Assembly (NCBI GenBank): GCA_030647905.1
Contig: JAUSJA010000033.1
Coordinates: 1 to 64,000 of the forward strand
Length of the DNA stretch: 64,000 bases
Direction: 5' to 3'
DNA from: Gemmatimonadaceae bacterium
Lineage (GTDB): Bacteria; Gemmatimonadota; Gemmatimonadetes; Gemmatimonadales; Gemmatimonadaceae
This document shows, one piece after another, positions 38,411-63,432 of the stretch. The position numbers and the translations under genes are program-made. The number at the start of each line of letters is the position of its first letter. The stretch's first letter is position 1. Below the pieces are notes generated by a model, which saw only the letters and a list, made by a program, of their open reading frames with translations, was not told the DNA's origin and made no database searches.

Positions 38411-38616
38411 CCAGACGCCAGACGCACTACGGAGGCGTCGAAGCGGCTACGATGCTTTGCGTCTGGTTGATGCAGTTCGTGTACGTGGTGATGTCAGGTC
38501 CTGTTTCCAAAGTGCTCATACGTGCATATTCTGCGCGCCGCGCCTGTGCTGGCCGGTTCCAACCATCGACCCGCGCCGCACAGCATCTGGCGTGGGCAAG
38601 AGACTACGAGAGGATC

Positions 38617-47854: not shown

Positions 47855-49122
47855 GTTGCGTCGTTGGCATCGACCTCGGCTCGACCACCACGAAAGCGGT
47901 CATCCTCGACGAGAACCGCGAGGTGCTCGGGCGCGGTATCACGAACTCCCGCTCCAATTACGACCTCGCCGCGGCGGTCGCGAAGACCGAGGCGTTCATC
48001 AACGCGCGGTTCGGACTCATCGAGCAGCAACTCCAGGCGACCAAGACTGTGGCGATGGTGAGCCGCCTGCGCCGCGCCTTCGTGATGGAGCAGATACTCC
48101 AGCAGTTGCGGCGGCTCGAGCAGCTGATGCTCGAAGAGAGCGAACGATCGGCGCCGGAACAGCTCAAGCCGGCGTTCAGGACGAGCATCGAGGAGATCTG
48201 CAAGCAGATCACGCTGGAAGAAGAGCAACGGTTCAAACAACCGCCGATGCTGCGCTCGGATTTCTTTCGCGATGCGGCGGGTTCGGCCTTCATGCGCATC
48301 GCCGAGCAAATCGCCGACCCGGCCGGTGTGAGCTTCGACCGCCTGGTGGGCGTGTACGACAAGTGCATCCTTCGGGTGGAGAACGAGCCACTCGACCTCG
48401 ACTTCCGCGATCACATCGGCGACGCGTTGCGGCGCGTGGGCGACCCCCCCGGCCTCGCCGACGCGATCGAGTACGCGGTTGCGAAAGACCTGGCGCCCTC
48501 GTACACGGTGGGAACGGGGTACGGCCGGGCGCGCCTTCCCTTCCCCAAGGAGCAGATCCGCTCCGAGATCCTGTGTCACGGGCTCGGCGCACACGCGATG
48601 TTCCCGGGCACGCGCACGGTACTCGACATCGGCGGGCAGGACACGAAGGCGATTCAGGTGGATCCGCAAGGCATCGTCACGAACTTCCAGATGAATGACC
48701 GGTGCGCGGCGGGTTGCGGGCGCTACCTCGGTTACATCGCCGACGAGATGAACCTCGGACTCCACGAGCTGGGACCCCTGGCCGAGCAATCGAAGCGGTG
48801 CGTGAAGATCAACTCCACGTGCACCGTGTTCGCCGGCGCGGAACTGCGCGAGCGTCTCGGACTCGGCGAGAAGCGCGAAGACATTCTCGCGGGATTGCAC
48901 CGGGCGATCGTGATTCGCGCGATGAGCCTGCTCGCGCGCTCCGGGGGTGTATCGGATGAGTTCACATTCACGGGGGGCGTGGCGAAGAATTCCGCCGCCG
49001 TGCATGCCATTCGTGACCTCGTCGGAGAGAACTACGGTGAGCGTACGCTCAATATCTCCCCGGACAGCATCTTCACGGGCGCCCTTGGCGCGGCGCTCTT
49101 CGCCAGCCGGATAGCCGCATGA
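47851..49122 (+). CDS. bcrA: Benzoyl-CoA reductase ATPase subunit A (BcrA/BadF)
   Basis: 423-aa ATPase of the BadF/BadG/BcrA/HgdC (ASKHA) family. Phosphate-1 motif [12 protein letters not shown] (6-17), phosphate-2 [10 protein letters not shown] (259-268), cluster cysteines C285 in [20 protein letters not shown] and C324 in STCTVFAG, and adenosine motif TFTGGVAKN. The long insertion between the two halves (about 90-230) and the CAAGCGRYL motif are specific to BcrA rather than to the shorter HgdC type. It hydrolyses ATP to lower the potential of electrons delivered to BcrBC. GTG start at 47851, within the bcrB stop. Confidence 0.93.
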
Positions 49123-50009
49123 CACATGTCAGCGCGGGAATAGATGTTGGCAGCGGCGCCGTAAAAGTGGCCGTGATGCGAACGGACGGCGACAAGGAAG
49201 AGACGGTCATCGCGAAAGAGTCGGCGCGAATCCGGCGCCGCGAAGTCGCCAAGGTCGTGGACGAAGTGTTCGAGGCCGCGGTGTCAGCGGCGGACGTGGA
49301 CGATATCCACTACATCGCCACGACCGGCGAGGGGGCGGAGTTCCCGTTCGCGACGGGGCACTTCTACGGCATGACGACGCACGCGCGAGGCGCGCTGTAT
49401 CTCGATCCGCGCGCGAGGGCAGTGCTCGATGTCGGCGCGCTGCACACACGTGCCGTCGCGATGGACGCGCGCGGGCGCGTGTTGGACTACAAGATGACAA
49501 GCCAGTGCGCGTCGGGCTCCGGGCAGTTCCTCGAGAACATCGCCCGCTATCTCGGCGTCTCGCACGACGAGATCGGCGCGCTTTCGATGGAGGCGAAGAA
49601 GCCGGAGAAGGTGAGCTCGATCTGCGCGGTGCTCGCGGAGACCGATGTCATCAACATGGTGTCGCGGGGAATCACGACACAGGACATCCTGCGCGGCGTA
49701 CACGAGAGCATGGCTGACCGCTTCGTGCGTCTCCTTCGATCGCTCCAGTTCGACGGCCCCGCGTTCGTGAGCGGAGGACTCGCGTCGGACGTCGGATTGC
49801 TCAGTGCGTTGCGCGACGGTCTCGCCAGGAAGGCAGGTGCGGCCACCGTTCCGTTCGACGTAGTGACGCACGCGGACGCCATTTTCGCCGGTGCGATCGG
49901 CGCTGCGCTGTGCGGGGGATTCCGGTACCGGAAGTTGGGCCAGGGGGGCGTCGCGTGGGCCGCCGCGCAGAGCATGGCCTCGGCCAGCTCGGGCACGGGG
50001 ATCGGATGA
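49119..50009 (+). CDS. bcrD: Benzoyl-CoA reductase ATPase subunit D (BcrD/BadG)
   Basis: 296-aa second ATPase subunit. Phosphate-1 motif [13 protein letters not shown]; the phosphate-2 region reads [10 protein letters not shown] (104-113), the form typical of BcrD in place of DIGGQD; cluster cysteines C130 ([13 protein letters not shown]) and C169 ([11 protein letters not shown]). BcrA and BcrD hold one [4Fe-4S] cluster between them. The ATG overlaps the bcrA stop (ATGA), and its own stop overlaps the next gene. Completes a class I, ATP-dependent benzoyl-CoA reductase; no ferredoxin gene is adjacent, unlike in Thauera. Confidence 0.92.
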
Positions 50010-50884
50010 CAATCGCGGCGATCGCCTATCACCGGCCGGCCAGCCTGGCGGAGGCGTGCGCGCTCGGCCAGCATTATGGGAGCGACGCGGCGTATCTGGC
50101 CGGGGGGACAGAGTTGATCCCCGACTATCAGCGCGAGCGGGAGACGGCGCGACATCTGATCGCGCTCGACAGCATTCGCGAACTGCGGGGGATCTCAGAG
50201 GAGGCCGGGCTGCTGAGAATCGGCGCGCTCACGACCATCGCCGAGATCGCCGCATCGCCGCTCGTGCGCGCGCGGCTCCCGGCGCTCGCTGACGCCGCGC
50301 GCGCGATCGGCAGCCCGCAGATCCGGAGCATGGCGACGATCGGCGGGAATTTCTGCCGCGCTGTGCCGTGTGCCGACACCCCACCCGCCGCCATCGCGTG
50401 TGCAGCTCGCGTGCGGCTCGTTGGCGTGCTGGGGGCCCGCGAGCTCGACGCCGAGGACTTCTTCACTGGCGTGCGGAAAACCGCGCTCGACCCGGGAGAT
50501 GTGCTGGTCGAGATCGTAGTGCCCGCGCAGCCCCACCACTCGGGCGCGAGCTACCAACGCTTCGCCCGGCGGCGTGGCCCTGCGCTCGCGGTCGCGGCGG
50601 TGGCGGCGCGGGTGACGCTCGAGAATGGGAAAATCACGGGCGCGCGCATCGCACTCGGTGCCGTGGCGCCGACCCCGATCATCGCAGCGCGAGCGGCCGC
50701 GCTGCTCGAAGGGGAGCCGCCATCCGACGCGCTCTTCGAGCGGGCGGCTGCGCTGTGCGCGCAGGACGCTCTGCCGATCAGCGACGTGCGCGGGTCGGCC
50801 GACTACCGGACGGAACTCGTCGGCGTACTTGCCCGGCGGGCGCTTCACGAAGCCGTGGCACGCGCGGCAGGTTGGGCCCAATGA
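50006..50884 (+). CDS. Molybdenum hydroxylase FAD-binding subunit
   Basis: 292-aa FAD subunit of the xanthine dehydrogenase/CO dehydrogenase family: YLAGGTELIPDYQ (pyrophosphate loop, 31-43), IGSPQIRSMATIGGNFCRA, and DTPPAAIACAARV. Context suggests a hydroxybenzoyl-CoA reductase (HcrB). But the extra [4Fe-4S] insertion, a roughly 40-residue block with four cysteines that is diagnostic of HcrB, is absent after the GGNFCRA segment. It may therefore be a hydroxylase for another ring, or a cluster-less reductase variant. ATGA overlaps join it to bcrD and to the next subunit. Confidence 0.85.
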   Translation: MTIAAIAYHRPASLAEACALGQHYGSDAAYLAGGTELIPDYQRERETARHLIALDSIRELRGISEEAGLLRIGALTTIAEIAASPLVRARLPALADAARAIGSPQIRSMATIGGNFCRAVPCADTPPAAIACAARVRLVGVLGARELDAEDFFTGVRKTALDPGDVLVEIVVPAQPHHSGASYQRFARRRGPALAVAAVAARVTLENGKITGARIALGAVAPTPIIAARAAALLEGEPPSDALFERAAALCAQDALPISDVRGSADYRTELVGVLARRALHEAVARAAGWAQ

Positions 50885-53715
50885 GCGGCGAGCTCATGAT
50901 CCGCCTGAATGTGAACGGCGAAGACCGCACGCTTGCCGTTCGGCCGAATGCGACGCTGCTCTCGGTGCTGCGGGACGACCTCGATCTCACGGGCGCAAAG
51001 CGGGGATGCGGCACGGGGGACTGCGGCGCGTGCACCGTGCAGGTAGAGGGCGAACCAATGGCGTCGTGCCTGCTGCTCGCCGTGGCCGCGAACGAAAAGC
51101 GCATTACCACGGTCGAGGGACTCGCCCGCGACGGTGATCTGCACCCACTGCAGAAATCGTTCGTCAAGCATGGCGCGCTCCAGTGCGGCTACTGCACGAG
51201 TGGCGCGCTGATGTCGGCCAAAGCGCTCGTTGACCGGGATCCCGATCCATCACGCGAAGACATCAAGACATCGCTCAGCGGGAATCTCTGCCGGTGCGGT
51301 GCGTACGGTCGGATGGTCAGCGCGGTTGAAGGGTGGAAGGAATATGATGGCGTGGCGCTCGACGCACGGCCGCACGCGCACGGCGAACGCGACCAGCAGC
51401 GGGACCACGCCGTGGTCGGCCACGGCGTCACGCGGTACGACGGGCCCGACAAGGTGACGGGCCGCGCGAAGTACACCGCTGACCTGCGGTTTCCCGGCAT
51501 GCTTCACGGAAAGCTGCTTGGGAGTCCCATCGCGCACGGGCGCATCACGCGGCTCGACGTTTCCAAAGCCCGCGCGTTGCCGGGTGTCGTTGATGTGCTC
51601 ACCGCCGCCGATGTACCGGATGGGTGGTACGGCGTCAGTCCCGCACGCGAGGACGAGCAGATTCTGGCCAGGGATCGCGTCCGCTACGTCGGCGACGAGA
51701 TCGCCGCGGTCGCCGCGGTGGACGAGGAGACCGCTGAGCACGCCATCAAACTCATCGAAGTGGAGTTCGAGGAACTTCCGGCGGTGTTCGATCCGCAGGC
51801 GGCGATGGCGCCGGGCGCACCGGTGATTCATCCCGAGAAGCCGCGCTATGCCGGCAACATCAACACGCGCGTGGACTGGGACTTCGGCGACGTGGAGAAG
51901 GGGTTCGCCGAAGCGGACCACGTGCGCGAGCAACGGTTCGTCGGCAACCGCACCTACCAGGCGCCGATGGAGCCGCACGCGGCGCTCGCGCGCTGGGAGC
52001 ACCACGCCGGCCGGCTCACGATCTGGTCGTCCACGCAAACACCGCACTACGTCCATCGTTCGCTGTCGCGGATGCTCGGCATCCCGATGGGGAACATTCG
52101 CGTGATCCGGCCGCCGGTAGGCGGCGGCTTCGGAGCCAAGGCCGAGGCGACGCCACTCGACTTCTGCTCCGCGATTTTCGCGAAGCGGACCGGCCGGCCG
52201 GTGATGATGGAGTACTCGCGCGAGGAGATGTTCAGGCACTTCCGCGGGCGCCACAAGCAGTACATCGACCTGAAGATCGGCGTGAAGCGCGACGGCACGA
52301 TCACCGCCGTGGAGCAGCGCGTCGTGCTCGACGGCGGCGCATACACGTCGTACGGCGTGATCACGGCGTACTACGCGGGCTCGATGCTGCCCACGCTCTA
52401 CAAGATGCCGAACTACCGCTACCGCGGCACACGCGTCTATACGAACCTGCCCGCATCGGGGGCGTTCCGTGGCCACGGCGTGCCGCAGCCGCGGTTCGCG
52501 TTCGAGTCGCTGCTCGACATGATCGCGGAAGACATCGGGCTCGATCCAATCGAGATTCGGCTCAGGAACGCGATGACGCCGAACACGCGCACGTGCAACG
52601 CGCTCGACATTACGTCGTGTGAGTTCACGGCAACGCTTCAGCGCGCGCGCGACACGTCAAAGTGGATCGAGAAGAAGGGCAAGCTGCCGCGCGGCAGGGG
52701 AATCGGGGTCGGATGCGGTGGGTTCGTTTCCGGCGCCGGGTATCCGATCTATCGGTCCGATTTTCCGCATTCGAACGCCGTCATCCGCGTGCACGAGGAC
52801 GGCACCGGCGTGTCGCTGCACATCGCCGCCGCGGAGATCGGCCAGGGATCCGACACCGTGCTCGTGCAGATGGCGGCGGAAGAGCTGGGGGTGCCTTACG
52901 AATGGGTATGGCTCGCGGATTGCGACACGACGACGAGTCCGCTGGATCTCGGCTCGTACTCGAGTCGGGTCACACTGATGGCCGGCCACGCGGTTCAGCG
53001 CGCGGCAGCGAAAGTGCGCGCGCAGCTGCTCGCGGTCGCTGCCACAGAGTTGTCGCGCGACGTCGCGTCGCTCGTCGCGAGGGGGGGCCGGATCTTCGCG
53101 AACAATGATCCCGCTATGGCAATGGACTGGGCCGTGGCTGCACGGCTCGCGTTCTCAGCGCAAGGCCCGGTCGTCGGGACGGGATCGTACCAACCGCCGA
53201 AGAATCTTGGCGGCGACTTCAAAGGAGGCGCCGTTGGCACATCGCCGGCGTACAGTTTCTCGACCGTGGTCGCAGAGGTCACGGTGGACCTGGAGACCGG
53301 TCAGGTCTCGGTGGATCGGGTGACGGACTTCAGCGACGCGGGCACGGTGATCAATCCGATCACGTTCCACGGCCAGGTGGAAGGTTCGATCGTGATGGGG
53401 CTCGGCGAAACGCTGCTCGAGGACACACTTTTCGACGCGAAGGGACGTGCCATGAATCCAAACCTGCACGATTACCTGATCCCGACGATGCTCGAAATTC
53501 CAGAGATTCACACGGCAGCGGTCGAAAGCTTCGAACCCAACGGTCCGTTCGGCGCGAAGGAAGTCGGGGAGGGATCCCTGCTCCCGGTGCTCGGCGCGAT
53601 CGCCAACGCGATCTACGATGCGTGCGGCGTCCGCGTCACCGAGTTGCCCATCACGCCCGAAAAGATCCTGCGCGGCCTGGCGAAACACGCCCCGGTCAAT
53701 GGAGTCCCCGCATGA
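50881..53715 (+). CDS. Fused [2Fe-2S] and molybdenum-binding hydroxylase subunit
   Basis: 944-aa fusion of the small iron-sulfur and large Mo subunits. Residues 1-160: plant-type [2Fe-2S] cluster C43, C48, C51, C63 (GCGTGDCGACTV) and a second cluster C102, C105, C137, C139 (QCGYCTSGALM, GNLCRCGAYG). Residues about 180-940: Mo-cofactor domain with PPVGGGFGAKAEATPLDF, AAAEIGQGSDTVLVQ and the C-terminal GPFGAKEVGEGSLLPV containing the active-site Glu. HcrA-like features are the last motif and VTELPITPEKIL. The fusion of small and large subunits is itself unusual for hydroxybenzoyl-CoA reductases, which keep them separate. Likely dehydroxylates or hydroxylates the aromatic acyl-CoA before or instead of ring reduction. 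Confidence 0.87.
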   Translation: MSGELMIRLNVNGEDRTLAVRPNATLLSVLRDDLDLTGAKRGCGTGDCGACTVQVEGEPMASCLLLAVAANEKRITTVEGLARDGDLHPLQKSFVKHGALQCGYCTSGALMSAKALVDRDPDPSREDIKTSLSGNLCRCGAYGRMVSAVEGWKEYDGVALDARPHAHGERDQQRDHAVVGHGVTRYDGPDKVTGRAKYTADLRFPGMLHGKLLGSPIAHGRITRLDVSKARALPGVVDVLTAADVPDGWYGVSPAREDEQILARDRVRYVGDEIAAVAAVDEETAEHAIKLIEVEFEELPAVFDPQAAMAPGAPVIHPEKPRYAGNINTRVDWDFGDVEKGFAEADHVREQRFVGNRTYQAPMEPHAALARWEHHAGRLTIWSSTQTPHYVHRSLSRMLGIPMGNIRVIRPPVGGGFGAKAEATPLDFCSAIFAKRTGRPVMMEYSREEMFRHFRGRHKQYIDLKIGVKRDGTITAVEQRVVLDGGAYTSYGVITAYYAGSMLPTLYKMPNYRYRGTRVYTNLPASGAFRGHGVPQPRFAFESLLDMIAEDIGLDPIEIRLRNAMTPNTRTCNALDITSCEFTATLQRARDTSKWIEKKGKLPRGRGIGVGCGGFVSGAGYPIYRSDFPHSNAVIRVHEDGTGVSLHIAAAEIGQGSDTVLVQMAAEELGVPYEWVWLADCDTTTSPLDLGSYSSRVTLMAGHAVQRAAAKVRAQLLAVAATELSRDVASLVARGGRIFANNDPAMAMDWAVAARLAFSAQGPVVGTGSYQPPKNLGGDFKGGAVGTSPAYSFSTVVAEVTVDLETGQVSVDRVTDFSDAGTVINPITFHGQVEGSIVMGLGETLLEDTLFDAKGRAMNPNLHDYLIPTMLEIPEIHTAAVESFEPNGPFGAKEVGEGSLLPVLGAIANAIYDACGVRVTELPITPEKILRGLAKHAPVNGVPA

Positions 53716-54365
53716 CCGCCCGGCCCATCGCGCACATCGACGCAGTACGTCCATCGCGGCTGGTTCGCGCGTCGTCGCAGAAAAAACTCGACCGGCTGCT
53801 GAAGAAGACGGCCGCGCTCATCGCGAAAAACGGGTTCAACGCGATGACAATGCGCGACCTGAGCACGGCGCTCGGCACGAGTCTGGCGGGGCTGTACCAC
53901 TATTTCGCGAGCAAGGAAGATCTGCTCTTTCAGCTGCAATACCGCACTTTCGCGTCGCTGCTCGAGCAGCAGGAGAAGATCGCTGAGCAGCCGGGCACGC
54001 CGGAGGAGCAGCTCGCGCGATTGCTCACCGGCCACCTGCAGTTCTACTCGCGGCACACGAACGAGCTCAAGGCATGCACGTTCGAGATGGAGTCGCTTGG
54101 CCCCAAGCCCTACAAGATCGTCGAGGAGATTCGACGCCGTTACTACAGGCTGATGGCCTCGGCGGTCGCGCAGGTCACTGACGGGCCGGCGGCCGGCACG
54201 AGGGAAACCAGGCAGAGCCGGCACACGGCGCTGTTCATCTTCGGGATGCTGAACTGGATTTTCATGTGGTACGAGCCGTCGCGGCACGGGACGGTCGAGC
54301 AGATCGGACAGGAAATGCGCGACTTGCTGTTGAACGGCCTTCGGCGCACAAAACGAAGCAGTTGA
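53712..54365 (+). CDS. TetR-family transcriptional regulator
   Basis: 217-aa regulator. The N-terminal helix-turn-helix (about 28-75) reads LLKKTAALIAKNGFNAMTMR followed by DLSTALGTSLAGLYHYFASKEDLLF, the standard TetR layout; the helical C-terminal domain binds a ligand and mediates dimerisation. It sits inside the operon it probably controls (its ATG overlaps the hydroxylase stop), giving autoregulation. The palindromes at 33370 and 45363 are the natural candidate sites; an aromatic or alicyclic acyl-CoA is the likely inducer by analogy with other TetR regulators of acyl-CoA pathways. Confidence 0.88.
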   Translation: MTARPIAHIDAVRPSRLVRASSQKKLDRLLKKTAALIAKNGFNAMTMRDLSTALGTSLAGLYHYFASKEDLLFQLQYRTFASLLEQQEKIAEQPGTPEEQLARLLTGHLQFYSRHTNELKACTFEMESLGPKPYKIVEEIRRRYYRLMASAVAQVTDGPAAGTRETRQSRHTALFIFGMLNWIFMWYEPSRHGTVEQIGQEMRDLLLNGLRRTKRSS

Positions 54366-54417: not shown

Positions 54418-55629
54418 GTGCAGTTCAACGATGTCTGGATTCCCTACGGTGGGTACTGGTCCACGCCGTTCACCCCGTGGCAGGGGGCGTTCGCGACGCT
54501 GGCGCCGATTCCGTTCGCCGCCGAAATGGCGGCACGCGCCTTGTCGGATCGCGGCGTCGCCGCAACCGACATCGACGGTCTCTGCCTCGGCACGACCGTC
54601 GCGAGCAAGCATTCCTTCTACGGTGCTCCGTGGTTCGCCGGGCTGGCGGGCCTCGGCCACGTGGGTGGACCGACGATCAACCAGGCGTGCGCGACGTCGG
54701 TGCGCTGCCTGGTGCAGGCCGCACAGGAGCTCGAATCGAAGAGCGCACACACCTACCTGGCCGCCACCGCCGACCGCACCAGCAACGGTCCGCATGTGTT
54801 CTACCCGAATCCCGCTGGTCCAGGCGGCACGGGCGACTCAGAGAACCTCGTGCTCGACAGTTTCGGGCACGACCCGTACGCCAGGAATTCGATGCTGCAG
54901 ACCGCGGAGAATGTGGCACGCGAGGCCGGAATCACACGCGAAGCGCAGGAAGAGGTCACCCTTCTGCGCTACAAGCAATACGAGCGCGCGCTCGCCGACG
55001 ACAGCGCGTTTCTCAGGCGCTACATGTTGTGGCCGGTGGAGATCAAGGACGCGCGAGGCAAGAAGGTGCTCGCGACGGTGACTGGGGACCAGGGTGTCTT
55101 TCCGACCACGGCGGACGGACTCGCCGGACTCCGGCCCGTGATGGAGGGGGGCACGGTCACATTTGGCACGCAGACACACCCCGCCGATGGCAACGCGGCC
55201 ATGTTGCTCACGTCGGGCCGCGACCGCGCCCGCTCTCTCGCGCGGAATGGCACAGTGGACGTGCAACTGCTCTCGTACGGACAGGCGCGCGTCAAGAAGG
55301 GCTTCATGCCGATGGCGGTGCTTCCCGCCGCGAAGCTCGCGCTCGAACGCGCGGGAATCCAGCCGAACGCGCTGGCCAGCGTCACGACGCACAACCCGTT
55401 CGCCGTAAATGACGTGTACCTCATGCGGGAGTTGAAGCTCGACGCCGAGCGGATGAACCGCTACGGATGTTCGCTCGTGTGGGGCCACCCACAGGGACCG
55501 ACAGGGCTCCGGTCGATCATCGAACTGATCGAGGACCTGACGATCCTGGGCGGCGGATATGGACTGTTCACCGGCTGTGCCGCAGGCGACAGCGCCGCCG
55601 CGGTCGTGCTGAAAGTCAGCGTGCGCTGA
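54418..55629 (+). CDS. Thiolase family acyl-CoA acetyltransferase
   Basis: 403-aa thiolase-superfamily protein. The N-terminal nucleophile is in TINQACATSVRCLVQA (Cys near 88). C-terminal motifs are THNPFAVNDVYL (His), YGCSLVWGHPQGPTG (His) and LFTGCAAGDSAAAVVLKV, where Cys takes the place of the usual C-x-G-G-G-x-G cysteine. It is divergent from housekeeping thiolases but keeps the expected catalytic residues. Best guess is cleavage of 3-oxopimeloyl-CoA to glutaryl-CoA and acetyl-CoA, given the neighbours. GTG start at 54418 behind a strong gaggaggg ribosome site. Confidence 0.8.
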   Translation: MQFNDVWIPYGGYWSTPFTPWQGAFATLAPIPFAAEMAARALSDRGVAATDIDGLCLGTTVASKHSFYGAPWFAGLAGLGHVGGPTINQACATSVRCLVQAAQELESKSAHTYLAATADRTSNGPHVFYPNPAGPGGTGDSENLVLDSFGHDPYARNSMLQTAENVAREAGITREAQEEVTLLRYKQYERALADDSAFLRRYMLWPVEIKDARGKKVLATVTGDQGVFPTTADGLAGLRPVMEGGTVTFGTQTHPADGNAAMLLTSGRDRARSLARNGTVDVQLLSYGQARVKKGFMPMAVLPAAKLALERAGIQPNALASVTTHNPFAVNDVYLMRELKLDAERMNRYGCSLVWGHPQGPTGLRSIIELIEDLTILGGGYGLFTGCAAGDSAAAVVLKVSVR

Positions 55630-55659
55630 ACCATACGAATGGCCGAGAGGACCTTTACG

Positions 55660-56616
55660 ATGAACTATTTCGCCCCGAAAGAGGCTGCCGGATTCGGATT
55701 CAAGGACATCCTGTACGAGAAGAAAGACTGGGTAGGACGCATCACGATCAACCGGCCCGAGTCGTTCAATTGTTACACGACTGCCACGCTGCAGGAGCTG
55801 ATCACCGCGATCGACGACGCCTCGACCGACGACAACGTCGGCGTGATCGTGCTGACGGGCGCCGGCGACAAGGCGTTCTGCACGGGCGGCGATGTGAAGG
55901 AATACGCGAACACCTACACCAGGAGCCCGCACGACTACTTCAAGTACATGGGGCTCTTCGCCAAGTACATCGAGAGCATTCTGCGCAGCGGCAAGGTGAC
56001 GATCGCGCGTATCAACGGGATCGCGGTCGGCGGCGGCAACGAGACCCAGCTGGCGTGCGATCTCGCGGTCATGGCTGACGACACCTATCTCGGCCAGGTT
56101 GGAACGAGTGTGGGGAGCGTTGCCTGTGGCGGCGCGACCCAATGGCTGTCGATCCACGTGGGGGACCGCCGCGCACGCGAAATGCTGTTTCTCAATCCGC
56201 GCATCCCCGCGGCAAAGGCGCTCGAATGGGGACTCGTGAACCGTGTTGTTCCGCGTGCCCAACTCGACGAAGAAGTGGCGACGCTCGTCAAGCAGTTGCT
56301 CGAGAAGTTCCCCGAATGCACGCGTTACACCAAGCAGCAGGTGAACTACTGGAAGGAAGTGTCGTGGCACGCCACCGTCGGGCATGCGCGCGACTGGCTC
56401 TCGACACACTTCACCACGCTCGAGCCCTACGAGGGGATGCAGGCGTTCGTGGAGAAGCGGAAAGTGGACTTCATGGGACTGCGGCGCAAAGCCGCCGGAG
56501 CGGGAAGCAGCGAATTCCTCTGGGGCCCATACAGCAAGGCGTGCACCAAGTGCGGCGCGAAGGGTATTCCGGAGCAGTTCACTTACTGCGGCGGTTGCGG
56601 CGCCGCGCTCACATAG
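55660..56616 (+). CDS. Oah/BamA-like ring hydrolase (crotonase) with C-terminal zinc ribbon
   Basis: 318-aa crotonase-fold protein. Landmarks shared with 6-oxocyclohex-1-ene-1-carbonyl-CoA hydrolase are NRPESFNCYTT, LTGAGDKAFCTGGDVKEYA, YFKYMGLF, RINGIAVGGGNETQLACDLAV, YLGQVGTSVGSVACGGATQW and WGLVNRVVP. The roughly 45-residue block that follows VVP in Oah (normally about 375 aa) is missing. Instead the last 25 residues form a CxxC-x11-CxxC zinc ribbon (C295, C298, C310, C313) that Oah does not have. It probably hydrates and opens the alicyclic ring to give 3-hydroxypimeloyl-CoA. Start at 55660 has a gagagg site; an in-frame ATG lies at 55639. Confidence 0.72.
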   Translation: MNYFAPKEAAGFGFKDILYEKKDWVGRITINRPESFNCYTTATLQELITAIDDASTDDNVGVIVLTGAGDKAFCTGGDVKEYANTYTRSPHDYFKYMGLFAKYIESILRSGKVTIARINGIAVGGGNETQLACDLAVMADDTYLGQVGTSVGSVACGGATQWLSIHVGDRRAREMLFLNPRIPAAKALEWGLVNRVVPRAQLDEEVATLVKQLLEKFPECTRYTKQQVNYWKEVSWHATVGHARDWLSTHFTTLEPYEGMQAFVEKRKVDFMGLRRKAAGAGSSEFLWGPYSKACTKCGAKGIPEQFTYCGGCGAALT

Positions 56617-56629
56617 CACTGCGAATGTC

Positions 56630-57379
56630 ATGAGTCTCGAACTCGCTGGTCAGGCGGCGCTGGTCACTGGCGCTGGACGCGGCATCGGCGCGGCGATCGC
56701 GCGCGAGTTCGCGCGCGCTGGTTGCGACGTGGCGCTCGTGGAGTTCGGGGCGTTCAATGAAGCGCAAAGCCTGGCCGATGAGCTGCGCCGGTCAGGGAGG
56801 CGCGCGGTCGCGATCCGCGCCGACGTCTCGGATGTCGGCGCGGCTGAGCGGGCGGTCGCGGCCACGGTTGAGGCGTTCGGCCGGCTCGATCATCTCGTGT
56901 GCAACGCGGGCATCACGCGCGATGCGATGATCTGGAAGATGACGGAAGAAGCCTGGGACCAGGTGATCGACGTCAATCTCAAAGGCTGTTTTGCGTACTG
57001 CCGCGCGGTGGCGGGCTTGTTTCGCACTCAGCAGCACGGGCGCATCGTGAACATCGCGTCGATCAACGGGCTGCGCGGAAGGGCCGGGCAGGCGAATTAC
57101 GCGGCATCGAAGGCGGGGATCATCGCGCTCACGCGTACGCTCGCGCGCGAGCTAGGGCCGAAGGGAGTGAACGTGAATTGTGTCGCCCCCGGCATGGTGC
57201 GAACCGAAATGGCGGCGAAACTCCCGCCGACCGTCCTCGAGAAAGCCATCGCCGAAACGGCCCTCGGCCGGATCGCCGAGCCGGAGGACGTGGCGCGCGT
57301 CGTCGTCTTTTTGTGCAGTGAAGCCGCACGCCACATCACGGGAGAAGTCATCAGAGTGGATGGGGGCCAGTTGGCATGA
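56630..57379 (+). CDS. SDR-family dehydrogenase (hydroxyacyl-CoA, BadH/Had role)
   Basis: 249-aa classical short-chain dehydrogenase/reductase: cofactor site TGAGRGIGAAIA (13-24), NAG in LVCNAGITRD, and catalytic Ser-Tyr-Lys in IASINGLRGRAGQANYAASKAG, with the C-terminal ITGEVIRVDGGQ. In Thauera the 6-hydroxycyclohexene-carbonyl-CoA dehydrogenase (Had) is a zinc MDR enzyme, while in Rhodopseudomonas BadH is an SDR. An SDR sits here between the ring hydrolase and the dienoyl-CoA hydratase, so it most likely oxidises the cyclic hydroxyacyl-CoA to the ketone that the hydrolase opens. Thirteen bases after the ring-hydrolase stop. Confidence 0.82.
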   Translation: MSLELAGQAALVTGAGRGIGAAIAREFARAGCDVALVEFGAFNEAQSLADELRRSGRRAVAIRADVSDVGAAERAVAATVEAFGRLDHLVCNAGITRDAMIWKMTEEAWDQVIDVNLKGCFAYCRAVAGLFRTQQHGRIVNIASINGLRGRAGQANYAASKAGIIALTRTLARELGPKGVNVNCVAPGMVRTEMAAKLPPTVLEKAIAETALGRIAEPEDVARVVVFLCSEAARHITGEVIRVDGGQLA

Positions 57380-57415
57380 CACGTGAGAGATATGCATGAA
57401 CGGAGCGCGGACGCG

Positions 57416-58189
57416 ATGACCGGGAACGCAAGCCTCGTGAGGTATGAGGTGCGCGATGGCATCGCGCACGTGACGCTCGACGCACCGCCGCTCAACATCC
57501 TGAGCGCGGCGATGATGCTGCAACTCACCGACGCACTGGAACGCGCGCAAGCGGATCGCTCACTCACTGCGGTTGCGGTTGGCTCGAATGGTCGTGCGTT
57601 CTCCGCCGGCGCGGACATCGGCGAGCACCGTCCCGAGCAGGCTCCCGGGATGATCGCCGCCTTCAGCCGTCTGTTCCGCGTGCTGGGGGCGAGCGAGTTG
57701 CCCCTTGTCATGGCTGTAGACGGGGCGGCGCTTGGGGCGGGATTCGAGCTGGCGATGATGGCCGACGTGCTCCTCGCGAGCGATCGCGCGACGTTCGGTC
57801 AACCGGAAATCCGGCTTGGCTTCTTCGCGCCGGTTGGCGTCACCGCGTTGCCGGCGCGTATCGGACTCGCGCGTGCGCTTGAAATCACATGCACGGGACG
57901 CACGTACACGGCGGCGGAGATGCTCGCGATGGGCCTTGTGTCGCGCGTCATCGCGTTTGCCGAGCTGCCGGCGGCGATAGACGGTGTGCTCGCGGACCTG
58001 CGGCGCTCGAGCCCGCTCGTGATGCGGATGAACGTGCGGTTGACGCGAACGCTCTTCGGCCAGCCATTCGAGGATGCGCGCTGTGCGGCGGAACGTGTGT
58101 TCCTTGGCGAACTCATGGCGACGGAAGACGTCCGCGAAGGACTCGCGTCCTTCTTCGAGAAGCGCCGGCCGGCGTGGAAAAACCGATGA
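57416..58189 (+). CDS. Cyclohexa-1,5-diene-1-carbonyl-CoA hydratase-like (Dch)
   Basis: 257-aa crotonase, the size of Dch. Distinguishing features are LDAPPLNILSAAMMLQL at the N-terminus, FSAGADIGEHRPEQAPGMIA with the His-Arg-Pro turn characteristic of this subgroup, VDGAALGAGFELAMMADVLL, and FGQPEIRLGFFAPVGVTALP. It should add water to the conjugated diene made by benzoyl-CoA reductase. GTG at 57383 and ATG at 57392 are alternative starts; the ATG at 57416 is preferred because it begins the conserved N-terminus and follows a ggag site. Completes the early pathway: reductase, hydratase, dehydrogenase, hydrolase. Confidence 0.82.
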   Translation: MTGNASLVRYEVRDGIAHVTLDAPPLNILSAAMMLQLTDALERAQADRSLTAVAVGSNGRAFSAGADIGEHRPEQAPGMIAAFSRLFRVLGASELPLVMAVDGAALGAGFELAMMADVLLASDRATFGQPEIRLGFFAPVGVTALPARIGLARALEITCTGRTYTAAEMLAMGLVSRVIAFAELPAAIDGVLADLRRSSPLVMRMNVRLTRTLFGQPFEDARCAAERVFLGELMATEDVREGLASFFEKRRPAWKNR

Positions 58190-58220: not shown

Positions 58221-60536
58221 ATGAGAATCCTGATCGTCGGTGCAGGCGCGCTGGGAGGGCTCGTGGGAGCATTCCTCACGCGTGCAGGAGAGGATGTGAC
58301 GCTCCTCGAGACGAATGTTGCCCGCGCACATCTGCTCAACACGGACGGACTGCACATCGTGCAAACAGGACGCGATGAATCCATCACCGTTCCTCTGCGC
58401 GTCGTGACGTCGGCGGAAGGGCTCGAGCCGTTCGATCTCGTGTTCATCGCGGTCAAGACGTATCAGACCGAGGACGCCGTGAAGGCAGCGTTGCCGGCCG
58501 CGCATGCGGGCACGCGATTCCTGTCGATGCAGAACGGCATCGGCAATACGGAGGTCGTGGCAGGCCTTGTCGGTCCCGATCGCGTGCTGTGCGGCATCAC
58601 GTACCACAGCGTGCAGCACGTCGGCCCGGGGCGGCTGCAGTTCCGCGCCGGGATCAAACCGATCCAGATCGCACCATTCGACGGGGTCGTGACCCCCGCG
58701 ATCGACGCGATCGGCGAGACGTTTCGCCGCGCGGGGCTCGATACGACGGTCGTCGCGAACATCGACCACGCTGTGTGGCACAAGTTGCTGCACAACGCGG
58801 CAATCAATCCCGTCTCCGCCATCACCGGCCTCACCTGCCGCGAGATCCTCGGAGACGAAGACCTGCTGGCGTTCATACGCGACTTGTGCGCGGAAATTGT
58901 CGCCGTGATGCGCGCGCGCGGCGTTCCCATCGTCGATGAGGAAGATCCGTTCCGTCCGCTGCTCGGATCACTTAACGCGCTCGGAAACAATCGGCCGACG
59001 ATGTGGCAGGATCTCGCGCGGGGCGTGCGGACGGAAGTGGACGCACTCAACGGAGCGGTCGTGGCGGAGGCGAAACGACTCGGGTTGCTCGCGCCGCACA
59101 ATGCGGCGCTCGTGCGGTTCGTGCATTCACGCGAGCGGCAACGGTTTCTCAACCGGCAGCACATCACGCGCTCGCTGGGACTCGACAGCACGTCCCGAAC
59201 GAACCGGATGAGTTCCGCTGCCGGTGGCACCTTTGCGGCTGCGCGGCGGGCGGACCGCGGGAACCAGCCACAGGCACCGCCGCTCGAAAGCACGCGGCGG
59301 CTGAAGGAAATCGTGCAGGCGTACTACCGCGACCTTGGTGCCGCCTCCGATGATCCCAACCGGTTCGTCGCAGCGTGTTCAAGCCTCGCCCCCGTGGAGA
59401 TCGTTCGCGCGCTCGGAATCGCTCCCTACTCTCCGGAGAACCATGCGGTGCTCATCAGCGCGCGTCATGAAGCGGCGCGCTATCTGGCGCGCGCGTCCAC
59501 GGAAGGGTTCTCCGAGTTCTCCAGCTCAGCGATGCGCGCGGACATCGGTGCACTTCTGGCGCAAAGCAGCCCGCTCATCGCGGCTCATGGGATCAAAGGT
59601 CCGCCGCGCCCCGATGTCGTCGTCTACTCGACCAACACGGGGCAGGAACTGCTGCGCTGGTTCGAGTTCTATGGCGCCCACTTCGGCGTGCCCGTTGTGG
59701 GCCTCCATCCGTCGTCGGCGCTGCACGAGATGGACAGCACCGAATTGTACGGCGCGGTCGAGCAGTTGTTGCGTCTGGTCGAGCAAGTCGAACGCGCCAC
59801 CGGTCTTACGCTCTCCATGGACCGGCTTGGCGAAACGGTGGCGTACACGGCGCAGGCGGCGAAACTGTGGGGCGACATTCTCGATCTCGCGCGCGCGGCG
59901 CCGGCTCCGCTGACGTTTTTTGACATGCTGACCCACATGACACCGATGGTTGTGCTCCGCGGCACGCCAGAGGCGGTCGCATACTACCAACTATTGAAGA
60001 GCGAAGTCGAAAACCGTATTGCGAACGGCACCGCGGCGGTGCCCGGCGAGCGGCAGCGCTTCTACTGGGACGGTCCGCCAATCTGGAGTGCGCTGCGGCC
60101 GCTCGCGCAGATCTTCGCCGACCGGGGGGTCGCGATCGTGGCGTCGACGTTCTGCGCGACGTTCACGCTCACGGGGCTCGACCCGCGCGACCCGGTCGAG
60201 AGCATCGCGCGGACCTACGCCTCCGTGTTCAGCAATCGCTCGGAGCGATATCAGCGCGACTACCTCGCCGACAAGTTCGCGCGGTTCGGCGTCGACGCGG
60301 CGGTCTTTCACGATTCCCGCACGACACCCGAAGCGAGTCACGTGCGCTACGGGCTCGCGGTTCGGGCCGAGCGGCAGACGGGCGTGCCGGCGTTCGTGAT
60401 CGAGGCCGATTCGCACGACGAGAGACTGTTTTCGGCCGATCGACTGCAACAGCGGCTCGGGGAATTCCTGGAACAGCATGAACCGCAGACAGCGGGCGTC
60501 GGCGGGCGCCAGCGAATGGACACGAGGAGGAGGTAG
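58221..60536 (+). CDS. Ketopantoate-reductase-like domain fused to a cysteine-less HgdB/BcrB-type subunit
   Basis: 771-aa fusion. Residues 1-325 are a complete ApbA/PanE-type reductase: NAD(P) site GAGALGG (7-13), with K188, N192, N196 and E272 of ketopantoate reductase conserved (VWHKLLHNAAINP, TEVDALNGAV). A linker (about 326-355) leads to an HgdB/BcrB-type domain (356-755) that is collinear with the protein at 61376 (LTFFDMLTHMTPMVVLRG, FYWDGPPIW, VAIVASTFC). The three cluster-ligating cysteines of that family are replaced: S435, G474 and S699. The second half is therefore a cluster-less partner subunit, and the first half offers a nicotinamide site. I know of no described protein with this architecture. 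Start at ATG 58221, 31 bases after the Dch-like gene. Confidence 0.85.
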   Translation: MRILIVGAGALGGLVGAFLTRAGEDVTLLETNVARAHLLNTDGLHIVQTGRDESITVPLRVVTSAEGLEPFDLVFIAVKTYQTEDAVKAALPAAHAGTRFLSMQNGIGNTEVVAGLVGPDRVLCGITYHSVQHVGPGRLQFRAGIKPIQIAPFDGVVTPAIDAIGETFRRAGLDTTVVANIDHAVWHKLLHNAAINPVSAITGLTCREILGDEDLLAFIRDLCAEIVAVMRARGVPIVDEEDPFRPLLGSLNALGNNRPTMWQDLARGVRTEVDALNGAVVAEAKRLGLLAPHNAALVRFVHSRERQRFLNRQHITRSLGLDSTSRTNRMSSAAGGTFAAARRADRGNQPQAPPLESTRRLKEIVQAYYRDLGAASDDPNRFVAACSSLAPVEIVRALGIAPYSPENHAVLISARHEAARYLARASTEGFSEFSSSAMRADIGALLAQSSPLIAAHGIKGPPRPDVVVYSTNTGQELLRWFEFYGAHFGVPVVGLHPSSALHEMDSTELYGAVEQLLRLVEQVERATGLTLSMDRLGETVAYTAQAAKLWGDILDLARAAPAPLTFFDMLTHMTPMVVLRGTPEAVAYYQLLKSEVENRIANGTAAVPGERQRFYWDGPPIWSALRPLAQIFADRGVAIVASTFCATFTLTGLDPRDPVESIARTYASVFSNRSERYQRDYLADKFARFGVDAAVFHDSRTTPEASHVRYGLAVRAERQTGVPAFVIEADSHDERLFSADRLQQRLGEFLEQHEPQTAGVGGRQRMDTRRR

Positions 60537-60539
60537 CCC

Positions 60540-61379
60540 ATGCCAGACAGCGCGAGCGGAATCGCGGCGGGAGTGGACGTCGGAACGGAGTGCGTGAAGG
60601 CCGTCGTGATAACGGATGCCGGTCGCACGCTCGGTCGCTCGGTGATACCGACGCGCGGCTACTTCCAGGTCTGCGCATACGAAGCGCTGACCGCCGCTCT
60701 CGATGATGCGCACAGGCGGCTTGACGAGCTGACGGGGATCGGAGCGACTGGCTTCGCCATGACGTGCGTGCCGAACGCGACGGTCACGATAACGGAATCG
60801 GTGTCGCACGCGCGGGGCGCGTTTCATCACCGGCAACACGCCATGACGCTGGTGAACATCGGCGGCGGCGATCCGCACGTGATCATCGTTGACGCTGCGG
60901 GGCGCCGGGTCGGGGAGCGCGGCATGCGGCGCTGTGCGGTGGGGGTCGGGAGTTTTCTGATGTTTTCGGCGCGCCACCTCGACGTGAACGCGACCCAACT
61001 CGACGAGCTCGCCGCTGCGGCCGGCAACGATGCGGCAGCGGTGAGCAGCTATTGCTCGGTGTTCTCCGCATCAGAAGTGCTTGAACGGCTGCGTGAGGGC
61101 GCCACGCGCGAGCAGGTGGCGCTGGGCTGCATACGGTCCATCGCGCAGCGCGTGCTGGAACTCGGTGGCTTCGAAGATCCCGTCGTGATATCGGGGGGCG
61201 TTGCCGAGTATTTCCCAGGCGTGCTGCGTGCGCTGGAATCGCTCTCGGGATTGCAGCTGACCACGCTGCCGGAGCCGATCTTCACTGGCGCATTCGGCGC
61301 GGCACTCGCAGCGTTCAGTGACCAGTGGGAAGATCCAGCGCGCCGCGGCGTCGACCAGGCAGAAGGAGCGCTGAAATGA
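60540..61379 (+). CDS. Divergent BadF/BcrD-type ATPase subunit
   Basis: 279-aa ASKHA ATPase of the BcrA/BcrD/HgdC family. The fold is clear: phosphate-1 GVDVGTECVKAVV (11-23), cluster cysteines C132 (MRRCAVGVGSFLMFS) and C172 (SSYCSVFSASEVL), and late VVISGGVAEYFPGVL. The phosphate-2 motif is altered to NIGGGDPHVI (106-115), with Asn for the first Asp and no Gln-Asp pair, and the GSTTTK loop is GTECVK. It probably plays the BcrD role, holding the shared cluster with limited or no ATP hydrolysis, beside the canonical ATPase at 62620. Strong ribosome site gaggaggagg just before the ATG. Confidence 0.85.
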   Translation: MPDSASGIAAGVDVGTECVKAVVITDAGRTLGRSVIPTRGYFQVCAYEALTAALDDAHRRLDELTGIGATGFAMTCVPNATVTITESVSHARGAFHHRQHAMTLVNIGGGDPHVIIVDAAGRRVGERGMRRCAVGVGSFLMFSARHLDVNATQLDELAAAAGNDAAAVSSYCSVFSASEVLERLREGATREQVALGCIRSIAQRVLELGGFEDPVVISGGVAEYFPGVLRALESLSGLQLTTLPEPIFTGAFGAALAAFSDQWEDPARRGVDQAEGALK

Positions 61380-62620
61380 CCGAACTGGCCAGCACCAACG
61401 CGCTACGCGCCACCATGGACGCGTATTACCGTTCGTTGGCTGATGCCGCCCTCCGCAAGACCGCACCGGTAGCCTGGTGCACGAGTGCGGGGCCGGTGGA
61501 ATTGCTGCGCGCGCTGGGCTTTGCCGTGCATTTTCCCGAAAACCACGCGGCGATGATGGGAGCCGCGCGCACGGCGAGCCGTTACCTGCCGCTGGCGCAC
61601 GCGCAGGGATACTCGCAGGACATCTGCTCGTACCTGACGAGCGACATCGGCGCGTACCTCGCGGGCGAGTCGCCGCTCAAAGCTTACGGATTGGAGCGCG
61701 CGCCAGCGCCTGACGTCCTCGTGTTCAACACCAACCAGTGCCGGGATGTCCGTGACTGGTTCGAGTGGTACGGACGCGAGCTACACGTTCCCGTGGTTGG
61801 CGTGCACTCTCCGCGCTCGATCGACGACGTCACCGAAAGTGACATCGATTCGGTGACCAGGCAGCTCGAGTCGCTGGTGGCTCCACTCGAGCAGGTGGCC
61901 GGCACGCGGCTCGACGACGCGCGGCTGATGGCCGCCATGCGCGCGTCGAGGGACGCCGCGCGACTATGGGGGACATGTCTCGGGACAGCGTCGGCCCGCC
62001 CGGCGCCGTTGACCTTCTTCGACGGCTCCATCCACATGGGGCCGGCCGTGGTGCTTCGTGGAAGCGACGACGCTCCGGCGTACTACCGGACGCTGCTCGC
62101 AGAACTCGAGCAGCGGGTCGAAAACCGTGTCGCCGCCGTGCCGGGCGAGACACTGCGCCTGTATTGGGACGGCATGCCGGTCTGGGGACGGTTGCGGGCG
62201 CTATCGACGATGTTCGCTGAGTTCCATACCGCGGTCGTGGCTTCGACCTACTGCAACAGCTGGGCATTTGCGGACCTCGACCCCGCTGAGCCGTGGCGGT
62301 CCGTCGCCCGTGCCTCGCTCGAACTGTTCATCGCGCGCTCCGAAGCACCGAAGGAGCGGTACATCGCCCGCATGGTGAAATTCTACGACGTCGATGGCGT
62401 GATTTTCCACGACTGCCGCACGTGCCCAAACAATTCGAACACGCGCTACGGCATGCCGGGACGTATCACCGAACGCCTTGGGATCCCGACACTGGTGCTC
62501 GACGGGGACGTCAACGATCTGCGGTGTTTCTCCGACGAGCAGGCGCGCACGAATATCGAGGGATTCGTCGAACAACTGACCGATGCGCGCGGGGCGACGT
62601 CAGCGAGGGGATCGCGCTGA
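61376..62620 (+). CDS. HgdB/BcrB-type active-site subunit of a second reductase/dehydratase
   Basis: 414-aa protein of the 2-hydroxyacyl-CoA dehydratase/benzoyl-CoA reductase family. All three cluster cysteines are present: C84 (SQDICSYLTSD), C122 (NTNQCRDVRDWFE) and C347 (IFHDCRTCPNNS, with C350 nearby). Other landmarks are WCTSAGPVELLRALG, YWDGMPVWGRL and VVASTYCNSWAF. It is collinear with, and clearly a paralogue of, the C-terminal half of the fusion protein at 58221, so the two probably form a heterodimer with a single cluster. ATGA overlap with the upstream ATPase and TGATG overlap with the downstream one. Confidence 0.87.
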   Translation: MTELASTNALRATMDAYYRSLADAALRKTAPVAWCTSAGPVELLRALGFAVHFPENHAAMMGAARTASRYLPLAHAQGYSQDICSYLTSDIGAYLAGESPLKAYGLERAPAPDVLVFNTNQCRDVRDWFEWYGRELHVPVVGVHSPRSIDDVTESDIDSVTRQLESLVAPLEQVAGTRLDDARLMAAMRASRDAARLWGTCLGTASARPAPLTFFDGSIHMGPAVVLRGSDDAPAYYRTLLAELEQRVENRVAAVPGETLRLYWDGMPVWGRLRALSTMFAEFHTAVVASTYCNSWAFADLDPAEPWRSVARASLELFIARSEAPKERYIARMVKFYDVDGVIFHDCRTCPNNSNTRYGMPGRITERLGIPTLVLDGDVNDLRCFSDEQARTNIEGFVEQLTDARGATSARGSR

Positions 62621-63432
62621 TGAAATTCTACGCCGGCGTCGACAGCGGATCCTGGACGACGAAGGCAGCCGTCATCGACGAAGAGGGCCACGTGCTCGGC
62701 ACCGCCGTTACGCGGTCCGGCGCCGACCTGGCCGCGGCGGCCGAACGCGCGTATGCGACGGCCCTGGCAAACAGCGGCCGTACGGGCGACGACATCGAGG
62801 CGGTATGGTCAACAGGTTTTGGCCGGAACACGATTCCATTCGCGGACGGATCGCGCACGGAACTCGACTGTCACGGGCGCGGCGTGGCCTATTACCTCAA
62901 GGGACCGCTCGTGGTGATCGACGTCGGCGGGCAGGACGCGAAGGTCATCCGTCTCGATGCCGCGGGGCATCGTCTGTCGCATCGCATGAACCGAAAATGC
63001 GCCGCCGGCACCGGGAGCTTCCTCGACGAAATCTCGCTGCGGCTTGGCATCGACATCGGCGAACTGAATGCGCTGGGTCGCGGCGCGACCGAGAGTCTGG
63101 AACTCTCGAGTTTCTGCACGGTGTTCGCCGGAACCGAGTTGCTCACGCTGATCCGCAGCGGCAAGCGACCCGCCGACCTGGCGATGGCTGCATACCGCTC
63201 GCTCGTCAAACGCATCGTCTCAATGGACGTACTTGAAGGTCGCATCGCTGCGACGGGCGGCGTCGTGGCCTACCATCCGATCGTTGTCGAGCTGATCGGC
63301 GCTGCATGTCGCGGCGAAGTGGTCGTGCCTCCCCACCCTCAGGAGATCGGCGCGTTTGGCGCGGCGCTCGCCGCATTGGCCGCGTGCGAGGAGCACGACA
63401 CGTCGGACACGGCGGAGTTGGTTCAACCATGA
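62620..63432 (+). CDS. BadF/BcrA-type ATPase subunit (canonical)
   Basis: 270-aa ASKHA ATPase with intact motifs: GVDSGSWTTKAAV (6-18), DVGGQDAKVI (101-110), C127 in NRKCAAGTGSFLDE, C166 in SSFCTVFAGTELL, and AATGGVVAYHP. It is the short HgdC-type form without the BcrA insertion. Paired with the divergent ATPase at 60540, it would provide ATP-driven electron injection into the HgdB-type heterodimer. TGATG coupling to the subunit at 61376 and ATGA to the synthetase downstream. Confidence 0.88.
   Translation: MKFYAGVDSGSWTTKAAVIDEEGHVLGTAVTRSGADLAAAAERAYATALANSGRTGDDIEAVWSTGFGRNTIPFADGSRTELDCHGRGVAYYLKGPLVVIDVGGQDAKVIRLDAAGHRLSHRMNRKCAAGTGSFLDEISLRLGIDIGELNALGRGATESLELSSFCTVFAGTELLTLIRSGKRPADLAMAAYRSLVKRIVSMDVLEGRIAATGGVVAYHPIVVELIGAACRGEVVVPPHPQEIGAFGAALAALAACEEHDTSDTAELVQP

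Follow-up and report, generated by a model that had tools for sequence, protein, structure and literature searches.

The locus considered here lies in a window of 64,000 nucleotides of DNA from a Gemmatimonadaceae bacterium (contig JAUSJA010000033.1, positions 1 to 64,000), and it raises the question of whether a ketopantoate reductase-like (KPR) domain is truly joined in one protein to a subunit of the HAD/BCR superfamily and, if so, what such a protein may do.

Architecture and reality of the fusion

The frame at 58221-60536 (+ strand) is a single ORF of 771 amino acids, with an ATG at 58221 and a stop at 60536. A Pfam search of its translation recovered both families, namely ApbA (PF02558, residues 3-154, 2e-35, 121.9 bits against a cut-off of 22.2) and ApbA_C (PF08546, residues 180-304, 3e-32, 111.9 bits, cut-off 22.7) in the KPR domain (residues 1-312, 58221..59156), and HGD-D (PF06050, residues 389-752, 2e-48, 166 bits, cut-off 28, profile positions 3-341 of 342) in the domain encoded at 59286..60536. 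The KPR half also scored 251 bits against TIGR00745 (cut-off 141). The structure model (AlphaFold2 with 12 orthologues, mean pLDDT 78) consists of two folded halves and a disordered joint, with pLDDT below 50 at residues 304-350. When the model was compared with solved structures by VIA-align, residues 355-758 matched HadB (3o3m_A) with Z 45.1 and rmsd 2.1 over 392 aligned residues, followed by BzdO (Z 42.5), MbdO (41.1) and the beta subunit HadC (31.4), and residues 1-309 matched both a ketopantoate reductase (5ayv, Z 34.9, rmsd 3.4, 298 aligned) and a D-mandelate dehydrogenase (5x20, Z 33.7, rmsd 3.1, 306 aligned). The first-pass annotation of the window had described a complete ApbA-type reductase at residues 1-325, an HgdB-type fold at residues 356-755 and a 30-residue linker between them. 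Domain search and fold comparison agree with the first two assignments; as for the linker, it is indeed present, of low complexity and probably flexible, as judged from pLDDT and from its variability among 12 loci, but it is somewhat longer than had been proposed (residues 313-355, 59157..59285).

A search of 395 Gemmatimonadota genomes found 17 copies of the full-length fusion in 16 genomes, which span 8 of the 138 genera, two families and one order. A continuous frame crosses the linker in 12 loci (that of the window and 11 further ones), among which the linker differs in sequence and length; in the 11 further loci, stop codons occur only at residues 763-767, in 3 of the 11, and none of the 12 frames has a stop ahead of residue 763 other than where a shorter frame ends naturally. 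The fusion is therefore genuine and conserved, as the first-pass annotation had held in describing one continuous frame. A misassembly, or a stop codon lost at the linker, is ruled out by the 17 fused copies in 16 genomes, by the 12 frames read, by the variable linker and by the agreement of independent assemblies, and the idea that the homologues might always be separate genes in relatives is contradicted by the same 16 genomes.

In a further 15 stretches, of which 12 surround other BcrB-type genes, no unfused KPR gene was seen beside HGD genes. Genomes G188 and G320 contain two other KPR genes, with 29% identity. A pattern scan of contigs, which could miss more distant fusions because its patterns were drawn from the KPR half only, returned 49 loci: 11 with the full fusion and one with a fragment of it at a contig end, all in Gemmatimonadota MAGs, and 37 with the KPR half alone. 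None of 72,556 plasmid records covered 80% of the fusion.

The KPR half belongs to the ApbA/PanE family, as both Pfam domains are above cut-off and the catalytic residues are kept. The positions of its catalytic Lys, Glu and Asn are those of the E. coli ketopantoate reductase; K188, N192, N196, N105 and E272 are invariant in all 12 orthologues aligned, and so is the GAGALGG motif. The KPR half thus appears to be an intact 2-oxoacid reductase and, because D-2-hydroxyacid (mandelate) dehydrogenases are among its closest folds, a possible producer of (R)-2-hydroxyacids.

The fused HGD half and its neighbour HGD2

Cys95, Cys128 and Cys380 of BzdO bind its catalytic [4Fe-4S]-OH2 cluster, whose open iron is flanked by Glu65 and His131, and the coordination in HadB is the same (PMC11971306). 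In our alignment (68 rows, the mistranslated L008 and L014 rows being disregarded), none of the 17 distinct copies of the fused HGD half (28 rows) has any of the three cysteines. They are replaced by Ser/Asn, Gly/Ser and Thr/Ala/Ser, respectively (S435, G474 and T702 in the window). All three are kept in every other member aligned, i.e. in the HadB, HadC, BzdO, BzdN, MbdO, MbdN, BcrB and BcrC rows, and also in three pairs that are encoded on plasmids and are either annotated as dehydratases or recognised as such. The Glu at the Glu65 site of BzdO is present in the fused half (12/12) and in HGD2, the product of the adjoining gene at 61376..62620 (+ strand). HGD2 has the three cysteines in all 14 distinct copies (15 rows; C84, C122 and C350 in the window, where the Glu is E55). 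The two proteins are 41% identical, and the motifs with the substitutions are easy to align by eye.

Judged by its sequence, the fused HGD half is a pseudo-subunit which has lost the ligands of the [4Fe-4S] cluster. With all three cysteines gone, radical generation by this subunit in the established manner is excluded, and this role would fall to HGD2. Thus, the proposal that a hydride-transfer enzyme is joined here to a radical-type reductase subunit stands as far as the two families and their fusion are concerned, but not for the radical subunit, given the loss in 17 of 17 copies. It should be noted that the three cysteines, the Glu and the alpha lineage, all found in HGD2 (the structure model of which has a moderate mean pLDDT of 71), form a pattern common to the catalytic subunits of benzoyl-CoA reductases (BCR), which is therefore not diagnostic. 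Likewise, a reductase role is compatible with a missing His131, since MbdO has a Phe at this position in the alignment.

In a maximum-likelihood tree of 62 HGD proteins (L008, L014 and eleven duplicate rows were left out), the fused halves and the HGD2s form sister clades (support 99/99) on the alpha, or catalytic, side, apart from the beta, or electron-relay, side (100/100); their grouping with HadB rather than with BcrB is only tentative (84/56). The fused half is therefore of the alpha-type (HadB/BcrB) lineage suspected for it earlier, with HGD2 as its sister. These sequences are most simply read as the outcome of a gene duplication within the alpha type, after which one of the two copies lost its cluster. 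Against the solved proteins, HGD2 scored 165 bits with HadB, 96 with MbdO and 93 with BzdO, and the fused half 100, 51 and 51, respectively, while the BcrB of the operon scored 214 bits with MbdO and 130 with HadB. No equivalog cut-off was reached: for HadB (750) HGD2 scored 192.5 and the fused half 151 bits, for BcrB (486.6) the fusion scored 125.7 and HGD2 132.9, and for BzdO (448.6) the values were 64.9 and 91.6. The scores against the solved proteins suggest that the HGD pair is closer to HadB, a 2-hydroxyacyl-CoA dehydratase, than to the BCR subunits. The module has no beta-type subunit of its own: of the four HGD-D genes of the genome, the sole beta-type one is the bcrC of the operon.

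Purifying selection acts on the KPR half, on the fused HGD half (where dN is well below dS throughout) and on HGD2, the synonymous sites being strongly diverged in most of the pairs compared. The amino acid sequence of the fused HGD half changes faster than those of the KPR half and of HGD2 in 11 of 11 comparisons.

The surrounding operon and the distribution of the module

Two activase genes flank HGD2. The first, act1 (60540..61379, + strand), encodes a BcrAD/BadFG-type activase (PF01869, closest PDB protein 1hux) that retains the cluster cysteines and has NIGGGD in place of DIGGQD at the nucleotide motif, where its orthologues have NIGGRD, DIGGRD and others. The second, act2 (62620..63432, + strand), encodes an intact ATP-dependent activase, with canonical nucleotide motifs and both cluster cysteines (DVGGQD, KCAAGTG, FCTVF). 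The BcrD of the operon also departs at the nucleotide motif (DVGALHT). One member is divergent and the other intact in both the HGD and the activase pair, so that both pairs are asymmetric at the level of sequence.

Upstream on the same strand lie the genes of a class I benzoyl-CoA reductase: bcrC (45396-46580, TIGR02263, 492 bits, cut-off 421), bcrB (46580-47854, TIGR02260, 700 bits, cut-off 487), bcrA (about 47851-49122, TIGR02259, 576 bits, 2 bits short of the cut-off of 578) and bcrD (49119-50009, TIGR02261, 348 bits, cut-off 313). They are followed, still on the + strand, by a 4-hydroxybenzoyl-CoA reductase-like (Hcr-like) block at 50006..53715, composed of a FAD subunit (50006-50884) and fused 2Fe-2S/Mo subunits (50881-53715), and scoring 948 bits against TIGR03194, just below the cut-off of 995. 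Between this block and the fusion are encoded, all on the + strand, a TetR-type regulator (53622..54365, true start probably near 53712), a thiolase (54418..55629), a BadI/MenB/Oah-like ring hydrolase with a C-terminal zinc-ribbon-like tail (55639..56616, below all the equivalog cut-offs shown), a short-chain, FabG-like dehydrogenase (SDR, 56627..57379) and a crotonase-fold hydratase that is either Dch-like or cinnamoyl-CoA hydratase-like (57383..58189). Downstream of act2, an AMP-forming acyl-CoA ligase (PF00501, + strand) starts at 63426 and runs past the end of the window at 64000 to 65327; beyond the window, a 6-hydroxycyclohex-1-ene-1-carbonyl-CoA dehydrogenase (Had) is encoded at about 65324-66412 (TIGR03201, 425 bits, cut-off 339). 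The gene order is alike in long stretches of three other genomes and, up to the contig ends, in further loci. The exception is L032 of genome G187, where a different BCR type lies upstream, the SDR, thiolase and TetR genes are absent from the interval, and the Hcr-like genes lie downstream.

Matches to BcrB (E up to 1e-60) were found in 42 of the 395 genomes, 17 of them above the cut-off, and 15 of these 17 carry the fusion; the other two are G026 and G290. The BCR contig of G290 is only 5.9 kb long. In G187, the fusion occurs with another BCR type. An orthologue of the ligase is present in 16 of the 16 fusion genomes and in 0 of the 26 other BcrB-positive genomes, and one of the thiolase in 14 of 16 (G249 and G187 being without) and again in 0 of 26. 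Several of the twelve BcrB-positive clusters without fusion that were inspected contain BadI-like, crotonase, SDR and Had-like genes. Because the ligase and the thiolase follow the fusion and BCR pathways exist without the module, the fusion, act1, HGD2, act2 and the ligase are a unit added onto ring-cleavage pathways.

Other associations were considered and rejected. A tie between Hcr and the module holds for local gene order and not for whole genomes, Hcr-like homologues being present in 39 of the 42 BcrB-positive genomes. A canonical Oah occurs in G026, which is without the module, and a match over the Oah cut-off in none of the nine fusion genomes searched; the idea that the module replaces the canonical Oah was dropped, as there are clusters with a BadI-like gene and no module.

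Possible function of the fusion

The reading that we tentatively prefer, at somewhat less than an even chance, is that of a 2-hydroxyacyl-CoA dehydratase, activated by ATP and equipped with its own substrate-supplying domain, that would feed side-chain aromatics into the benzoyl-CoA pathway; the identity of the substrate is inferred. KPR enzymes convert 2-oxoacids to (R)-2-hydroxyacids, and HGD-D enzymes of the HadB kind use ATP-driven electron injection to remove the 2-hydroxyl of an (R)-2-hydroxyacyl-CoA via a ketyl radical. Accordingly phrased for this locus, the KPR domain would reduce an arylpyruvate derived from Phe or Tyr to the (R)-aryllactate with NAD(P)H, and the ligase would convert this to its CoA ester. 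With hydrolysis of ATP, act1 and act2 would supply the [4Fe-4S] cluster of HGD2 with one low-potential electron, and HGD2 would remove the 2-hydroxyl via a ketyl radical, so that cinnamoyl- or 4-coumaroyl-CoA is formed. The HGD half without a cluster would complete the dimer structurally and anchor the KPR domain. A hydratase, a dehydrogenase and a thiolase can turn cinnamoyl-CoA into benzoyl-CoA; here, the crotonase, SDR and thiolase would produce benzoyl- or 4-hydroxybenzoyl-CoA by beta-oxidation, to be taken over by the Hcr-like enzyme and BcrCBAD.

This reading agrees with the gene content and is supported by the invariant KPR residues, the closeness of the HGD pair to HadB, the Cys and Glu kept in HGD2, the sister relation and the purifying selection described above, the strict distribution of the ligase and, with two exceptions, of the thiolase, and the Hcr-like genes in the cluster. 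There is also evidence against it. The L032 locus of G187 has no SDR beside the module, and its genome yielded no orthologue of the thiolase. Known dehydratases carry a cluster in both subunits and usually have one activase gene, whereas BCR-type pairs have two; the module lacks a beta subunit, and its activases form a BCR-like pair. Moreover, the fusion offers no obvious channel, as the intermediate has to reach the ligase and come back. Finally, the crotonase may instead serve the ring pathway as a Dch, and the tree groups the HGD pair with HadB only tentatively.

The two activase genes, one of them divergent as in the BcrA/BcrD of the operon, would fit a second, substrate-specific ATP-dependent aryl- or dienoyl-CoA reductase, in which HGD2 would be catalytic, act1/act2 would act as a BcrA/BcrD-like pump, and the KPR domain would reduce or oxidise a ring ketone or hydroxyl after dearomatisation. 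The position of the module between the BadI-like, crotonase and Had genes, i.e. ring-processing genes (L032 included), and the best PDB match of act2, which is MbdQ (149 bits, against 143 for HadI), point in the same direction. However, the operon already holds a full bcrCBAD, the module is without a beta-type electron-relay subunit of its own, and ring processing does not appear to need it, as BadI-like and Had-like genes occur in module-free clusters. Because both HGDs are nearer to HadB than to MbdO or BzdO, while the BcrB of the operon is nearer to MbdO, a dehydratase is at least as likely as a reductase, and we regard the latter as rather unlikely.

It is less probable still that the cluster-free HGD half binds an acyl-CoA through its CoA channel and hands it over to the KPR domain, which would act directly on a CoA-bound 2-oxo or ring-oxo substrate. 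The conserved Glu (12/12), the preserved fold and the constraint on this half (dN well below dS) would suit such a role, and there is a structure of an archaeal KPR with bound CoA (5ayv, by its title), but KPR enzymes use free 2-oxoacids, and the faster change of the HGD half in 11 of 11 comparisons is more scaffold-like. Alternatively, the KPR half could be an NAD(P)H-binding sensor or scaffold without turnover, gating an ATP-costly enzyme; a degenerate fusion partner and a flexible linker would be in line with this, but the catalytic residues, needless for a sensor, are all invariant, and we consider it improbable. That the KPR half is the ketopantoate reductase of the cell (CoA biosynthesis), carried along by the fusion, is highly improbable: although the fusion is the sole ApbA_C match in 11 of the 16 fusion genomes and PanB is matched in 9, there is no PanB match in the other 7, G026 has PanB without any KPR match, and the presence of the fusion follows the ligase and BCR genes. 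The PanB distribution thus gives no support to the view that the KPR half is there for pantothenate biosynthesis, although this half may moonlight in genomes with PanB and no other KPR.

Among known systems, HadBC with its activator HadI (3o3m, 4eht) is the closest solved relative of both HGDs in sequence and fold, and HGD2 keeps the alpha ligand pattern; unlike HadBC/HadI, the module has two alpha-type subunits and no beta, one of the two being cluster-less and fused to a reductase, and two unlike activases. The class I benzoyl-CoA reductases BzdNOPQ, MbdNOPQ (8s02, 9gai) and BcrCBAD share the families, the two unlike activases and the operon context, but the module lacks an [8Fe-9S]/beta subunit, and its HGD pair falls below the BCR cut-offs. 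Ketopantoate reductases and D-mandelate dehydrogenases (5hws, 5ayv, 5x20, 8wl1) show the same complete fold and catalytic residues as the KPR half, which, in contrast, carries a C-terminal HGD-D domain and is encoded among aromatic-degradation genes. The chemistry proposed above for the dehydratase, from arylpyruvate through aryllactate and cinnamoyl-CoA to thiolysis to benzoyl-CoA, would be that of the FldBC phenyllactyl-CoA dehydratase route of Clostridium sporogenes (PMC13416013), and the same paper discusses a similar reaction sequence as one option for another anaerobe. Compared with the FldBC route, a ligase takes here the place of a CoA transferase, and the BCR pathway is in the same operon.

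No description of a KPR-HGD fusion was found in the open-licence literature, in agreement with the first-pass annotation, which knew of no precedent. The individual parts are known. What is apparently undescribed, to the extent that searches of that literature show, is the fusion itself, together with the alpha-type partner without ligands and the alpha/alpha-prime composition. It is conceivable, if doubtful, that they make up a single-[4Fe-4S] complex which is built on an alpha/alpha-prime core, is served by an asymmetric activase and lacks an electron-relay subunit. In it, a nicotinamide-dependent step would be directly coupled to radical chemistry at one and the same carbon, which passes from 2-oxo through 2-hydroxy to the dehydrated state.

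Among anaerobic reductions, some of the most difficult are carried out by the HAD/BCR superfamily. A conserved member without ligands, joined to an ordinary reductase and accompanied by an intact sister and asymmetric activases, is a natural experiment on the purpose of the second half of the dimer, and the path of the electron becomes testable with one cluster rather than two. The predicted side-chain entry into anaerobic benzoyl-CoA metabolism, for which no earlier study in Gemmatimonadota was found among titles and abstracts, concerns a phylum of soil and peat. If these readings are true, half of an ATP-activated radical enzyme would have turned into the cluster-free carrier of a hydride-transfer reductase, a new architecture in the superfamily, and Gemmatimonadota would possess an undescribed anaerobic route from arylpyruvates to benzoyl-CoA.

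Genes within and beside the cluster

The window encodes a 4-hydroxybenzoyl-CoA reductase-like protein (50881-53715) whose 2Fe-2S and molybdenum subunits are fused in a single frame of 944 amino acids, the gamma-like part spanning residues 6-150 and the alpha-like part residues 184-932. In the Thauera 4-hydroxybenzoyl-CoA reductase, the 2Fe-2S and molybdenum parts are separate subunits. A strongly conserved BadI/MenB/Oah-like hydrolase (55639-56616), which scores below all the equivalog cut-offs shown, carries a C-terminal CxxC...CxxC tail, and is also present in benzoyl-CoA reductase (BCR) clusters that do not contain the KPR-HGD fusion.

Flanks of the operon

A short way ahead of the cluster lie two genes (38452-39948 and 43805-45127) encoding membrane proteins, NhaD-like antiporters by eye, which closely resemble each other and apparently the product of a recent duplication. 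In three relatives (locus L018, at 11236-13281, and genomes G029 and G019), a fused FadJ-like 3-hydroxyacyl-CoA dehydrogenase/hydratase adjoins bcrC; none was seen upstream of bcrC within the window. A hemerythrin-like gene (HHE, assigned by eye) follows the operon on the opposite strand in several relatives (e.g. L031:18272-18940), and none was seen at the corresponding place in the genome of the window. Downstream of the operon in locus L016 (8600-19200, about 68.6-79.2 kb of the contig), inspection by eye only indicated BREX/Pgl-like phage-defence genes, namely a large ATPase, a PglX-like methylase and a PglZ-like gene.

Related operons and genes in the phylum

The genome bin G320 carries two fusion operons, on contigs C60 and C144, that differ in lineage (89% and 65% identity to that of the window); the genome may have both, or the bin may be a mixture. 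Further KPR-family genes (29% identity) were observed at L121 (G188:C140) and L122 (G320:C223), in open frames of unusual length (766 and 595 amino acids, respectively). A second BCR type was also observed (e.g. L032, on G187:C853), whose catalytic subunit clusters with MbdO of 3-methylbenzoyl-CoA reductase, and this type is scattered across several families of the phylum.
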